Shown here: piece after piece, positions 16,661-25,740 of the stretch
How positions within the stretch are numbered: the first letter of the stretch is position 1
How the letters are laid out: every line of letters begins with the position of its first letter
Program-made: the position numbers and the translations under genes
Assembly: GCA_017886375.1 (NCBI GenBank)
Contig: JAGGNB010000113.1
Coordinates: 51,867-115,866 of the forward strand
From: Octadecabacter sp.
GTDB lineage: Bacteria > Pseudomonadota > Alphaproteobacteria > Rhodobacterales > Rhodobacteraceae
DNA: 64,000 bases
Reading direction: 5' to 3'
Notes under the pieces: model-generated
What the model saw: the letters and a program-made list of their open reading frames with translations, nothing else
Databases searched by the model: none
What the model was told of the DNA's origin: nothing

Positions 16661-17801
16661 CGCTTTGGAATTCGGGGGGTTCGGTCTTTATCTTCATTGG
16701 CCGTTTTGCCAGGCGAAATGCCCCTATTGCGACTTTAATTCGCACGTTGTGGCGTCAGTCGACCAAACACGTTGGGCCGCCGCGTTCGAGAAAGAAATCG
16801 ATCGCATTGCGGATATGACCGGTGATCGCGTTCTGAATTCGGTGTTCTTTGGCGGTGGCACACCCAGTATGATGGACGTGTCTACGGTTGATCGGATTTT
16901 AACGCGCATCCAGAAACGTTGGAGGTTGGCCAACGATCTTGAGGTCACACTTGAGGCGAATCCAACATCAATAGAGGCCCAGCGGTTTGCGGGGTATTAC
17001 GCCGCCGGCGTGAATCGTGTGTCTGTGGGCGTTCAGGCGTTGAACGATGCCGATTTGAAGGCCTTGGGTCGTCTACATTCTGCAGATGAAGCAATGGCCG
17101 CAGTGGAAATTGCGAGAACAACGTTTGATCGGGTTAGTTTCGATCTGATTTATGCGCGCCAAGACCAGAGCGTTGGGCAATGGCAGGCCGAGTTAACTCG
17201 CGCACTGGAATTTGAACCAGATCATCTGTCATTGTATCAATTGACTGTTGAGGACGGGACTGCGTTTGGCGACAGATTCAAGCGTGGACTACTGCGAGGA
17301 TTGCCAAACGAAGATCTTGGTGCGGATCTTTGGGATGTCACGCAAGACGCATGCGAGAAGGCTGGATTGCCCGCCTATGAAGTGTCTAACCACGCGAAAA
17401 TAGGCCAGGAGAGCCGCCATAATTTGATTTATTGGCGGTCAGGCGATTGGGCTGGAATCGGACCTGGGGCGCACGGCCGACTTACATTGGACGGTGTCCG
17501 CCGTGAAACTGTTTGCGTGAAGAGCCCTGGGATGTGGATTGCGCAGGTCGAATCCGGTGCTTTGGATCTTGATACGGGATCTGCCCTTGGGGCATCAGAC
17601 ATCTTGGAAGAGCGTGTCCTTATGGGGTTGAGAATGGTTGAAGGCATAGAGATGTCGGCGGATTGGATGACGGATAAATTGAATAGAATCAATGAGTTGG
17701 TGGTCATTGGCCATCTCGAAAGGACTACAAACCGGCTGACTGTGACAGCCCAAGGGCGTCCCGTCTTAAACGCCGTGATCAGCCATCTTTTGACAGACTA
17801 G
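16653..17801 (+). CDS. hemW: Radical SAM heme chaperone HemW
   Basis: LYLHWPFCQAKCPYCDFNSHV; FFGGGTPSMM; GPGAHGRL. Confidence 0.93.
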   Translation: MPDALEFGGFGLYLHWPFCQAKCPYCDFNSHVVASVDQTRWAAAFEKEIDRIADMTGDRVLNSVFFGGGTPSMMDVSTVDRILTRIQKRWRLANDLEVTLEANPTSIEAQRFAGYYAAGVNRVSVGVQALNDADLKALGRLHSADEAMAAVEIARTTFDRVSFDLIYARQDQSVGQWQAELTRALEFEPDHLSLYQLTVEDGTAFGDRFKRGLLRGLPNEDLGADLWDVTQDACEKAGLPAYEVSNHAKIGQESRHNLIYWRSGDWAGIGPGAHGRLTLDGVRRETVCVKSPGMWIAQVESGALDLDTGSALGASDILEERVLMGLRMVEGIEMSADWMTDKLNRINELVVIGHLERTTNRLTVTAQGRPVLNAVISHLLTD

Positions 17802-18688
17802 TTTCCAGACAGCAGTCGCAACAAGTCGTCCAATTGTTCAAGATCGCGGTAGTTCAACACGACCTGACCATTTTCACGTCCTGCGGCATGCGCGATGTTG
17901 ACCTTCAACCCAAGATGCGCGGACAGATCGTTTTCAATCTGAACGGTGTCGGCGTCTTTCGTCACTGTCTTGCCTGAAGTAGGGCTTTTCTTTGGATTCT
18001 TTGATGTCTTCACAAGCTTCTCAGCGTCTCGAACGGATAGCCCTTTCTTGACGATCTCCGCTGCAAGTTTGTCCGCATCCGGATGACCAATGAGGGTTCG
18101 AGCGTGGCCCGCAGACAGCGTTCCATTTTGTAAAAGTGACTGAACGGATGCAGGGAGCGTGAGGAGGCGTACTGAATTGGCGATATGGCTGCGGCTTTTA
18201 CCAAGCGCTTTGCCCATATCTTCTTGAGTTCGACCGAATTTTTCCATCAGCTGCTTGTATCCAGCCGCTTCATCAATTGCGTTGAGGTCGGATCGTTGGA
18301 TATTCTCAATAATCGCAACTTCTAAGACTTCGAGGTCTGTAAATTCTCGAATAATAACAGGAACGTCATGCAATTGGGCGCGTTGCGCTGCGCGCCACCG
18401 ACGTTCGCCGGCGACGATTTCATATGAGCCATTCTCTGAGGGTTTTCGGCGTACAATAAGAGGTTGGATGATGCCTTTTTCTGCGATTGAGGCGGTTAGA
18501 TCATCCATCGACTGATCATCAAATGTGCGGCGCGGTTGATCCGGGTTTGGATAGATTTGGCCCGTAGGTACGGTGTAATCCGTCGGGCTCAGCGCAGATT
18601 TTGGTGCCTCAACAGGGGTGTTCACATCGGACATGAGGGCGGAAAGCCCACGACCGAGACCGCGTGTGGGTGTCTTAGGTGTGCTCAT
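17798..18688 (-). CDS. parB: Chromosome partitioning protein ParB
   Basis: GLGRGLSALMSD, YPNPDQPRRTFD, EIVAGERRWRAAQRA, GHARTLIGH. Confidence 0.96.
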   Translation of the reverse strand: MSTPKTPTRGLGRGLSALMSDVNTPVEAPKSALSPTDYTVPTGQIYPNPDQPRRTFDDQSMDDLTASIAEKGIIQPLIVRRKPSENGSYEIVAGERRWRAAQRAQLHDVPVIIREFTDLEVLEVAIIENIQRSDLNAIDEAAGYKQLMEKFGRTQEDMGKALGKSRSHIANSVRLLTLPASVQSLLQNGTLSAGHARTLIGHPDADKLAAEIVKKGLSVRDAEKLVKTSKNPKKSPTSGKTVTKDADTVQIENDLSAHLGLKVNIAHAAGRENGQVVLNYRDLEQLDDLLRLLSGN

Positions 18689-19488
18689 GATACTCTCCGG
18701 TTTCTGGGGGTTGGCTCGCGGTCAATAATTTCTTTGGCCAGAGCGTGATATGCATGTGACCCTTTGGATGCGGGGTCGTAATCGATGACCGGTAGGGCGA
18801 AGGATGGCGCCTCACTCAGTCGGACGTTGCGTGGGATGACTGTTTCAAAGACCAGGTCCCCCAAATTTCCGCGGGCATCTGCTTCGACTTGTTGGCACAG
18901 GTTGTTGCGCTTGTCGTACATGGTTAGAACGACGCCCTCGATGCGAAGCGATGGTTTTGCTGTCTGTCGGATATCGCGAACTGTTAACATCAATTGTGAC
19001 AAACCTTCGAGGGCGAAGAATTCACTTTGGAGCGGAACAACGACTGAATCTGATGCAATCATGGCATTCACTGTCAAGATGTTGAGCGAAGGCGGGCAAT
19101 CTATCAATATGTAGTCTAAGGCGAGTGTATCAATGTCAGGTTGATGCAGGGCATCGTGCAACATAAAGCTGCGTTTTTCGTTCGCCATGAGGTTGATATC
19201 AGCCGAACTTAGATCGGTAGTGGCAGGTATTATTAGTAGATTCTCAACACTTGTGTTTTTTACAGCGTTTGATGGCAGCACATCCCCCGTCAGGAGATCG
19301 TATGTCGTTATATTGCGATCTGCCAACTCAATCCCCAAGCCAGTTGACGCGTTACCTTGAGGGTCAAGATCAATCAGAAGCACCCGACGACCAGCGCGGG
19401 CGAGCGCGGCGCCCAGATTTATGGTTGTTGTCGTCTTTCCGACGCCGCCCTTTTGGTTTGCGACTGACAGGATCTTTGGGTTCGTCAT
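18685..19488 (-). CDS. parA: Chromosome partitioning ATPase ParA
   Basis: ILSVANQKGGVGKTTTTINLGAALA; LLIDLDPQGNASTGLG. Confidence 0.96.
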   Translation of the reverse strand: MTNPKILSVANQKGGVGKTTTTINLGAALARAGRRVLLIDLDPQGNASTGLGIELADRNITTYDLLTGDVLPSNAVKNTSVENLLIIPATTDLSSADINLMANEKRSFMLHDALHQPDIDTLALDYILIDCPPSLNILTVNAMIASDSVVVPLQSEFFALEGLSQLMLTVRDIRQTAKPSLRIEGVVLTMYDKRNNLCQQVEADARGNLGDLVFETVIPRNVRLSEAPSFALPVIDYDPASKGSHAYHALAKEIIDREPTPRNRRVS

Positions 19489-19492
19489 TCGA

Positions 19493-20113
19493 CTAAGATT
19501 CACGGCGGATTATCCTTGAAAGTATGAGCACGCGAGAATCTGGATTGGTCTGACTGGTGTGCTCTTTTACGTCAAAATGCCAAGATTGTGCTGCATGGTC
19601 CAGTTCTTCTTGGTAGCGAGCACCCTTTGGAAATATTGCAGTGCCTTCTGGCTGCAAAAATTGGTCGGCATAGCCCAAGAGATCACTCAATGGAGCCAAG
19701 GCGCGTGCGCTTAATACGTCGGCTTTCGCGACATCTGCATCCAGGAGTCTTCTATTTATGATATTGATATCTAAACCCAATTCTCTTCGAGCCGTTGCTA
19801 GAAAAAGGCATTTGCGTTTGTCGCTTTCAATCAACGTCATTGGCCGTTTCTGTTGATCCAATATTGTCACGACCAGCGCCGGAAGTCCGCCGCCGCTGCC
19901 AAGATCGGTCCAGCACGTCCAATCGTCAGGAGCACAATGAAAAACCTGCGCACTATCAACGATATGTCGATCCCAAAGATCTGGGACACTGTTTGGCGCG
20001 ATAAGGTTGATCGCCTTCGTCCATTTGGTGATCAGAGCGCACAACTGCTCAAGTTTTTCCATTGTTTCACGTGAAACATCCACACCTCCAACAGAGGTCA
20101 CATCATTGCTCAT
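19493..20113 (-). CDS. rsmG: 16S rRNA (guanine527-N7)-methyltransferase RsmG
   Basis: ORF 206 aa; [28 protein letters not shown]; position next to mnmG. Confidence 0.93.
20063..20078. promoter_or_regulatory. parS centromere site
   Basis: Exact 16-bp palindrome TGTTTCACGTGAAACA, within rsmG codons (DVSRETM). Confidence 0.95.
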
Positions 20114-21987
20114 GACGCTTTGGCCGTAGGTTGTCGCTTCTTTATCTCAGCCGCAACGAGCATTAGGGCAGCCGGGGTGATTCCGTCGATGCGGGCCGCC
20201 TGAGCAAGATTGTCGGGCAGGGCGGTTTTCAGCTTCGACTTCAGTTCGTTGGACAGACCAGAAATTGAATCGTAGCTCATATTATGTGGAATAAGTTTGT
20301 TGCTGTCCCTTTTCATACCTTCGATATCTCGCATCTGACGTTCGACGTAGTGGGAATACAATGCATCCCGTTCCAGCTGGGAGGCGATCTCTTTTGGGAT
20401 TTTGGACAACTGCGGCGCAATCGCAGCAAGGTCGTTAACGGTGGTTCCTGCTATGGTCAGTGCATCCGCCAATGTGCGCTTTGGGCCATCAGCACTCACC
20501 TTCACGCCTGCGCCATTCAATTCGCGAGATGACGCGATAATACTCAATAATTCCTCTCGTCCACGATTCAGTTCATTCTTTTTATTGGAATAGACGATCC
20601 ACCGCGCGTCTTCGACACAGCCAACGTTTCTACCAAAGCTCGTTAGACGCTGATCTGCATTATCAGCTCGCAATGAAAGCCGGAATTCCGCCCGTGACGT
20701 GAACATGCGGTACGGCTCTGAAACCCCACGCACCGTCAGATCATCTATCATCACTCCGATGTATGATGTTGAACGGTCAAAAAGAACGGGATCATGGTTC
20801 TTGGCCTGCGCGGCAGCGTTCAGACCCGCAACGATTCCTTGCGCGGCGGCTTCTTCGTAACCTGTTGTTCCATTAATTTGACCAGCCAAAAACAACCCTG
20901 GCATGCGCTTCAGCTCAAGCTGTGTGCTTAAACTGCGTGGATCGATGTAATCGTATTCAATTGCGTAGCCAGGTTGCAGTATCTTCGCGTTCTCAAGGCC
21001 CACGATTGAGTGAACATATTCCTCTTGCACATCGACGGGCAGAGAGGTGGAGATGCCATTGGGGTAGATCGTGTGATCCGTAAGCCCCTCAGGTTCAAGA
21101 AAAATTTGGTGCGACGTTTTATCAGCGAATCTTACGACCTTATCTTCGATGGACGGACAATAACGCGGTCCGACACCATCGATATGCCCCCCATACATGG
21201 CCGACCGTTCGAGGTTTTTAGCAATGATTTCATGAGTTTCAGGGTTTGTATAGGTGATCCCACAGGCAATTTGTTTTGCAAACGTGGTCCGATGCATAAA
21301 CGAAAAAAGTTCTGGTTCCACGTCTGCGTCCTGACGTTCGAGTCCATCCCAATTGATCGTTCTGCCATCGAGACGCGGTGGGGTGCCGGTTTTTAGACGG
21401 CCCAGTGGTAGATCGTACGACGAGAGGCGTTCGGCCAGTGCGATAGAGGGAAGATCCCCCAAGCGTCCACCCGCTTTGGCAACGTCGCCGATATGGATAA
21501 CCCCACGCAAGAAGGTCCCTGATGTGAGCACGACAGCTGTCGCGGAGATTTTTGAGCCATCTTTTAGAACAACACCGGTAACGCGCCCGTTCTCTAGCGT
21601 AAGGTCAACAACCTCGCCCTCACGCACGTCTAGGTTTGATCGTGCGGCTGTAAGTTCTTGAACGGCATTGCGATAAAGGGCGCGGTCGGCTTGGGTCCGT
21701 GGGCCTTGCACCGCGGGGCCCTTTCTCCGGTTCAAAAGCCGGAACTGGATGCCCGCGCGATCCGCAGCGCGGCCCATAATCCCATCCAGCGCATCAATTT
21801 CACGCACAAGGTGCCCTTTGCCCAAGCCACCGATCGCTGGGTTACAGGACATCACGCCAAGATCCGTTAGCCGAAGCGTGATCAGCAACGTGCGAACACC
21901 GGACCGGGCAGATGCATGCGCAGCCTCACAGCCAGCGTGACCACCCCCGATAATAATAACATCATATGTATGTTTCACGTGAAACAA
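20110..21987 (-). CDS. mnmG: tRNA uridine-5-carboxymethylaminomethyl synthesis enzyme MnmG
   Basis: [45 protein letters not shown]; alternative start TTG at 21987 or GTG at 21978. Confidence 0.96.
21971..21986. promoter_or_regulatory. parS centromere site
   Basis: Exact 16-bp palindrome TGTTTCACGTGAAACA, overlapping the first codons of mnmG. Confidence 0.95.
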
Positions 21988-23309: not shown

Positions 23310-24623
23310 TTATGTGTTCATTGAATCGAAGAAATCTGAATTTGTCTTGGTCTGTTTCAGTTTCGAAATCAAGAATTCAATCGCATCTGTAGTTCCCATA
23401 GGGTTCAGGATTCGACGCAGAACAAAAGTTTTCTGCAGATCAACTTTGTTGATCAACAGGTCCTCTTTGCGGGTACCCGACTTAAGAATATCCATCGCAG
23501 GGAACACGCGCTTATCAGCGATCTTGCGATCCAAGACGATTTCAGAGTTACCGGTACCTTTGAATTCTTCAAAAATAACTTCGTCCATCCGGCTGCCTGT
23601 ATCGATGAGGGCCGTTGCGATGATCGTCAAGGACCCACCTTCTTCGATGTTACGTGCAGCACCAAAGAACCGCTTCGGGCGTTGCAGCGCGTTCGCGTCC
23701 ACACCACCTGTCAGCACTTTACCAGACGACGGAACTGTCGTGTTAAACGCACGACCCAAGCGTGTGATAGAATCCAAAAGAATGACAACGTCGCGCTTAT
23801 GTTCAACAAGGCGCTTAGCCTTCTCGATCACCATTTCAGATACAGCCACGTGACGGGTTGCAGGTTCATCAAATGTCGAAGAAACCACTTCGCCTTTCAC
23901 AGAACGCTGCATATCAGTAACTTCCTCAGGGCGTTCGTCGATCAAAAGCACGATCAAATAACACTCAGGGTGATTGGCAGCGATGGAATGTGCGATGTTT
24001 TGCAACAGGACCGTCTTACCTGTCCGCGGGGGCGCAACGATCAGACACCGCTGGCCTTTACCAATCGGGGCCACAAGATCGATGATCCGCGCTGAGCGGT
24101 CTTTCATCGTTGGATCTGCAGTCTCCATAATCAAACGCTCATCAGGATATAGTGGCGTGAGGTTCTCAAAGGCCACCTTGTGGCGCGCGCGTTCTGGGTC
24201 TTCAAAGTTGATCATTTCAACCTTGGTCAGCGCAAAATAACGCTCTGTCTCAGATGGCTCCTGAATAACACCGTCAACTGTGTCGCCTGTCCGCAAGGAA
24301 TGTAGACGAATCATATCGGGGGAGACGTAAATATCATCTGGGCCGGGCAGATAGTTTGCACCCGGAGAGCGCAGAAACCCGAAACCATCTTGCAGCACCT
24401 CAAGAACCCCGTCGCCGCCAATGATCCAATCATCTTCGGCCCGTTCCTTGAGGATCGAGAACATGATGTCGCCTTTGCGCATCGTCGACGCGTTCTCAAT
24501 CTCCAGCTCTTCCGCAAGTGACAACAAATCTTTCGGGCTTTGCGCCTTGAGATCGGCAAGGTTCAAGCGGTCCGTTGTCACGATTTCTTCGGGAACTTCG
24601 GCGGGCATTACGTCGTCAGGCAT
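23310..24623 (-). CDS. rho: Transcription termination factor Rho
   Basis: [62 protein letters not shown]. Confidence 0.97.
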
Positions 24624-24641
24624 CGTTCGGTCTCCGGCCAC

Positions 24642-25140
24642 ATGCGCGGCCTTTTCATAATCTGTTCTGGAAAATTACCATTCGGACGAACGGTTTCTTT
24701 GACTAAGCCTTCTCGGCAAGCCTGTCAATTCTATGAACCGGACGTATCTGGCGACACGCAACGACCCTTACTTTTCTATCTAACAAAGAAGAATCTTAAA
24801 AAGGTGTTTGTAGTAGTAGTGCTGTGGACAGCCGTTGAGATTAAACATCTCCACAAGTTTATCCCCGTGTGTCCAAGGCGACAATTGATACCAAAGGCGA
24901 GAATATAAGTTATAAATTATTGAATAATATTGATTTTTTTAGACACTTAGGACTTGTTGGATAAGAACTAACGAGTCCGATCAGATTTTATCCACAGCAC
25001 CGATTCGTCCTTATCCCTCGTGGATAAGCGGGATATCGATTAGGATATCTCGCATAACTTTCACGATCTGTGGGATGTGTTGCGCTTAACCCCAAATCGT
25101 CCCATGACGTGTTAACACAGTCACCCACTGGGATATCCAC
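24642..25140. other. Putative chromosomal replication origin (oriC)
   Basis: About 0.5 kb non-coding between divergently transcribed rho and maf; perfect DnaA box TTATCCACA at 24988-24996, other TTATCC-core boxes at 24859, 24956(-), 25011 and 25019(-); AT-rich block around 24900-24950; adjacent parAB/parS. Confidence 0.75.
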
Positions 25141-25740
25141 ATGGCCAACCAGATTATTCTAGCATCCTCGTCCGACATTCGCGCCAGATTGCTGCGAAAT
25201 GCCGGCGTTACCTGCGAGGTCATACCAGCGCGAATCGATGAAGATTCGATTAAGCGAGCGCTTGAGGCAGAAGCCGCAACGCCACGTGACATTGCCGACA
25301 CATTGGCCGAAATGAAAGCCCGTAAAGTTGCTGAAAAAGGCGTTGGGCCGTTGGTCTTGGGGTGCGACCAAGTGCTGTCGTTCAAGGGGTCGGTCTTGTC
25401 AAAGCCGCAAAACCCACACGATGCACGTGATCAGCTCCGTATGTTGCGGGGTGAGACGCATCAGCTTCTGTCTGCGGCCGTTGTCTATGAGGGTCTCGAA
25501 CCTGTTTGGCGCCACGTTGGTGTGGCCCGGCTCTCCATGCGCGATTTCTCGGACGATTATCTGGATGACTATATCGATCGGAATTGGGACAGCATTCGTT
25601 GGTCTGTCGGCGGCTATAAAATCGAAGAAGAGGGCATTCGTCTGTTTCGTATGGTACAAGGCGATACGTTTACTATTCAGGGCCTGCCTCTCTTGGAGCT
25701 CTTGTCTTACCTCACGCTTCGCGGAACACTGCCAACATGA
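25141..25740 (+). CDS. maf: Maf-family nucleotide pyrophosphatase
   Basis: IILASSSDIRARLLRNAGV and LGCDQVLSFKG. Confidence 0.93.
   Translation: MANQIILASSSDIRARLLRNAGVTCEVIPARIDEDSIKRALEAEAATPRDIADTLAEMKARKVAEKGVGPLVLGCDQVLSFKGSVLSKPQNPHDARDQLRMLRGETHQLLSAAVVYEGLEPVWRHVGVARLSMRDFSDDYLDDYIDRNWDSIRWSVGGYKIEEEGIRLFRMVQGDTFTIQGLPLLELLSYLTLRGTLPT

Follow-up and report, generated by a model that had tools for sequence, protein, structure and literature searches.

Where does chromosome replication start in this Octadecabacter-group roseobacter? The window, by which we mean the whole 64-kb stretch of DNA that was analyzed, is part of a 115,866-bp contig from a draft genome of 3.26 Mb in 225 contigs. 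It contains a gap between two divergent genes, rho and maf, which a sequence-only reading had put forward as a candidate origin. That reading described about 0.5 kb without a convincing gene, and we likewise found no convincing ORF in the 499-bp gap (24642-25140; AT-rich, 42% GC). The gene setting is also as it was named, with rho, mnmE, mnmG, rsmG, parA, and parB on the minus strand and maf, aroE, coaE, and dnaQ on the plus strand. From the sequence comparisons set out below, we predict with a probability of roughly 0.94 that the rho-maf gap is the chromosomal oriC. The call is supported by boxes conserved in 18 congeners, skew minima at or near maf in three relatives, nearby parS sites, and published DoriC predictions. 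The gene setting and the DnaA sites of the locus are as follows:

17798-19503, minus strand: parB and parA, near the rho-maf gap
20063-20078: perfect parS, TGTTTCACGTGAAACA (exact match)
21971-21986: perfect parS, TGTTTCACGTGAAACA (exact match)
23310-24641, minus strand: rho, flanking the predicted oriC
24642-25140: predicted oriC, the rho-maf intergenic gap
24823-24831, minus strand: DnaA box CTGTCCACA, two mismatches (two or fewer mismatches in 14 of 18 congeners)
24859-24867, plus strand: DnaA box TTATCCCCG (two or fewer in 18 of 18)
24988-24996, plus strand: perfect DnaA box TTATCCACA (two or fewer in 18 of 18)
25011-25019, plus strand: weak TTATCC-core DnaA site, three mismatches (core kept in most congeners; two or fewer in six of 18)
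25019-25027, minus strand: DnaA box TTATCCACG (two or fewer in 17 of 18)
25133-25141, plus strand: box ATATCCACA, which shares its last base with the maf start codon (two or fewer in 18 of 18)
25141-25740, plus strand: maf-like nucleotide pyrophosphatase gene, flanking the predicted oriC

Counting as a DnaA site any TTATCC core or any match to TTATCCACA with at most one mismatch, we find six box-like sites in the gap plus the first base of maf, against 0.14 expected from the rate in the rest of the contig (Poisson P ~ 1e-8). The gap is the densest cluster of such sites on the 116-kb contig, and no other 500-bp stretch comes near it. The orthologous gap is likewise the densest cluster in the samples taken from the congeners G015 (1.02 Mb) and G003 (0.5 Mb). 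Since the gap is AT-rich, its boxes might simply be a chance product of intergenic DNA of that composition. However, in 2000 dinucleotide-shuffled versions of the gap the count never reaches six (mean, 0.46), and the box positions are conserved in 18 species. Because of this conservation we regard a chance origin of the cluster as refuted, its remaining likelihood being negligible.

The congener set comprises 18 loci of the same genus (Octadecabacter group), the window locus included. All 18 carry rho on the minus strand and maf on the plus strand, with 459-503 bp between them. Most congeners share only 54%-65% sequence identity with the window in this gap, yet across the set the length of the gap and the positions and orientations of the boxes are all conserved. 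Measured from the maf start, the boxes stand at approximately -318 (minus), -282 (plus), -153 (plus), -130 (plus), -122 (minus), and -9 (plus). All the boxes quoted in the sequence-only reading are present in the window. One of them, on the minus strand at 24956-24964, is found in only one of the 18 aligned congeners, the window's own species, and we rejected it as a functional site. Two boxes had been overlooked, those at 24823-24831 (minus) and 25133-25141. The latter is the best conserved of all, reading ATATCCACA in 17 of 18 congeners and TTATCCACA in the remaining one; it may serve DnaA in the control of maf or belong to the origin.

The position of the gap on the chromosome was assessed through cumulative GC skew, the follow-up that the earlier reading had proposed, sampled in three near-complete relatives, the host itself being a draft. 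In G015 (a 5.2-Mb contig) the sampled minimum lies at ~4.72 Mb and maf at 4.705 Mb, within ~20 kb of each other. The G015 maximum lies at ~2.0 Mb, half a chromosome from the minimum, and KOPS-like GGGCAGGG octamers flip polarity near it. In G021, which belongs to another genus, the lowest sampled value adjoins maf and the maximum is nearly opposite. In G003 the maximum is also nearly opposite maf, and the sampled minimum is broad, reaching ~0.4 Mb past maf. The skew of the window itself has a local minimum near 25 kb that is not its lowest point. The two parS sites point to the same neighborhood: Each of four family relatives has two exact parS copies, always 3-6 kb from maf, and no other exact copy in the genome.

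The same data bear on a rival view, in which rho and maf merely share a divergent promoter region regulated by DnaA and replication starts at another site, such as dnaA. Two features would fit such promoters: a TTGAC-type, -35-like element for rho that is conserved at ~24724-24732 (minus), and the overlap of a DnaA box with the maf start codon. The host dnaA lies on a different contig, however, and we found no cluster of DnaA boxes at that locus. In relatives, dnaA is roughly 80-500 kb from maf; in G015 it is ~0.5 Mb away and far from the skew minimum. Both the skew and the parS sites indicate the rho-maf gap. We therefore reject an origin adjacent to dnaA and consider the promoter-only explanation very improbable. 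The G015 chromosome also contains many weak DnaA-family matches (model residues ~143-240), which look like repeated insertion-sequence AAA+ ATPase genes.

Within the predicted oriC, the boxes form a left pair (24823 minus and 24859 plus) and a right group (24988, 25011, 25019, and 25133, the last at the maf start). These are accompanied by further elements:

24772-24806: A/T-rich tract, preferred candidate DNA unwinding element (weak duplex here in congeners and other genera)
24811-24819, plus strand: TAGTAGTAG, a DnaA-trio-like run of three 3'-GAT-5' repeats that reads away from the 24823 minus-strand box
24913-24925, minus strand: IHF-consensus site ATTCAATAATTTA, one mismatch, inside the AT block 24900-24950
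24973-24977: GAGTC, a conserved GANTC site (CcrM-type methylation motif; congener alignment)
25002-25006: GATTC, a GANTC site (18 of 18 congeners)

The conserved IHF-consensus site separates the left pair from the right group. At its alignment position, 13 of 18 congeners match the consensus with at most one mismatch. A perfect consensus occurs in the central block of six of 18 congeners (1.1% expected) and of 17 of 80 loci from other genera (2.1% expected).

Two regions of weak duplex, centered at about -360 and -220 from maf, occur at conserved positions in congeners and other genera, giving two candidates for an AT-rich unwinding element beside the boxes. The sequence-only reading had favored the central AT block (24900-24950) for this role. 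The block is AT-rich, as it said, and contains the 30-mer of lowest stability in the whole window; within the window it is intrinsically less stable than the tract at 24772-24806. Congeners and other genera keep a weak duplex at this position too, and on these grounds the gap could be oriC with the central block as its unwinding element and the left A-rich tract serving mainly as rho upstream region. We consider this arrangement rather unlikely. The block is more likely a bend site because the conserved IHF site lies inside it, and its sequence is poorly conserved outside that site. The left tract is also conserved in its low stability and, in addition, adjoins ordered 3-nt repeats and a box oriented as in the unwinding system of Bacillus subtilis. 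The better candidate is thus probably the A-rich tract at 24772-24806, beside TAGTAGTAG and the 24823-24831 box.

This left-hand layout, an A-rich tract and then 3-nt repeats directly left of the left box pair, has counterparts across the family, where an AT-rich tract with trinucleotide repeats recurs. Among congeners, 67% have a period-3 repeat of at least 8 nt there, compared with 2% of shuffled sequences; for other genera the figures are 30% and 1%. Under the published sequence criteria for a DnaA-trio unwinding system (BUS; a box with at most two mismatches, a spacer of at most 16 bp, and at least three trios), the minus strand of the window reads CTGTCCACA-GCA-CTACTACTA, with all three parts within these limits. 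A strict trio search matches 12 of 110 loci, duplicates counted (eight distinct congeners and one other genus). The strict TAGTAG definition fails in other genera, where a motif search finds that position occupied by GATGATG-type repeats, which follow an A-rich tract of greater length.

From these parts we propose a scheme of opening. IHF would bend the DNA at the central AT block so that the right group of DnaA meets the left pair. From the minus-strand box of that pair, DnaA would then spread over the TAGTAGTAG repeats, and the A-rich tract 24772-24806 would open; the helicase would be loaded there and forks would leave in both directions. ParAB could segregate the new origins through the parS sites 3-5 kb away. 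DnaA, IhfA, and a CcrM-type protein with a RAMA domain, the C-terminal domain of CcrM, are all encoded in the host genome. GANTC density in the congener gaps is ~3.6 times that of the window, and a link between initiation and CcrM methylation through these sites is conceivable.

A location of oriC beside maf has been described as conserved in Rhodobacteraceae, as predicted by DoriC/Ori-Finder in work on Ketogulonicigenium vulgare (PMC4793288), and in a study of 101 genomes the oriCs of the family were assigned from Ori-Finder, skew, and parAB (PMC6699656). A DoriC/Ori-Finder comparison had been suggested for the present locus, and the published family predictions do place oriC where we find it (PMC4793288). 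The gap described here is in the same family and in the same place, beside maf and near parAB and parS, and therefore belongs to a known kind. What is added beyond published knowledge is only the corrected internal map. Rhodobacteraceae origins have so far been predicted by Ori-Finder and skew, as far as the literature we found shows. For a draft marine roseobacter genome the present analysis fixes a predicted replication origin, and it resolves the conserved elements of that origin to the base (DnaA boxes, the IHF site, the trinucleotide repeats, and the GANTC sites), in a map that makes specific predictions on where DnaA opens the DNA.

The gap in the Octadecabacter group is shorter than in the predicted maf-adjacent origins of the family (~500 vs. 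~915 bp), and in other genera the rho-maf distance is mostly ~900-950 bp. In Ruegeria atlantica, from the one other genus examined in this respect, a HemJ gene accounts for the difference; its match scores 135.6 bits, slightly short of the 138-bit family cut-off. Judged from gap length, hemJ probably lies between rho and oriC in most other genera as well. Unlike Ruegeria (L146:2147-2596), the Octadecabacter group has no hemJ between rho and oriC; elsewhere in these genomes we found just a HemJ-like protein, divergent and scoring below the family cut-off. In other alphaproteobacterial families (L212-L231), the DnaA boxes are frequently some 0.9-1 kb upstream of maf, a spacing consistent with a gene between oriC and maf, and some of them adjoin TAGTAGT repeats.

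The Caulobacter crescentus origin, Cori, is AT-rich and has DnaA boxes and one IHF site (PMC1914354, PMC4285127), and in all three respects it resembles the gap. It differs in being flanked by hemE and COG1806 and in having five CtrA sites. No TTAA-N7-TTAA site with at most one mismatch occurs in the window's rho-maf gap, and a Caulobacter-style origin under CtrA control is unsupported there; nine of 18 congener gaps contain such a site.

In B. subtilis, the BUS runs in the order box, spacer, 3'-GAT-5' trios, A-rich DNA, and such a system is predicted in 85% of bacterial origins (PMC8287927). The window has a box, a short spacer, three candidate trios, and A-rich DNA in the same relative orientation (PMC6669920, PMC8287927). 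It differs from B. subtilis in its weak box (two mismatches), its 3-bp spacer, and its number of trios, only three; other Rhodobacteraceae genera differ further in carrying GATGATG-type repeats.

In the Escherichia coli oriC, an unwinding tract at one side is followed by a box and then by an IHF site that divides the left from the right group of boxes. The predicted origin shares this order; one difference is its conserved GANTC sites. Rhodobacteraceae origins might join a split box array bent by IHF, as in E. coli, with a trinucleotide (TAGTAG/GATGATG) unwinding module like that of B. subtilis at a fixed place, a proposal for which we judge the odds to be even. If true, this combined IHF/trinucleotide arrangement would be a family-wide origin layout, directly testable.
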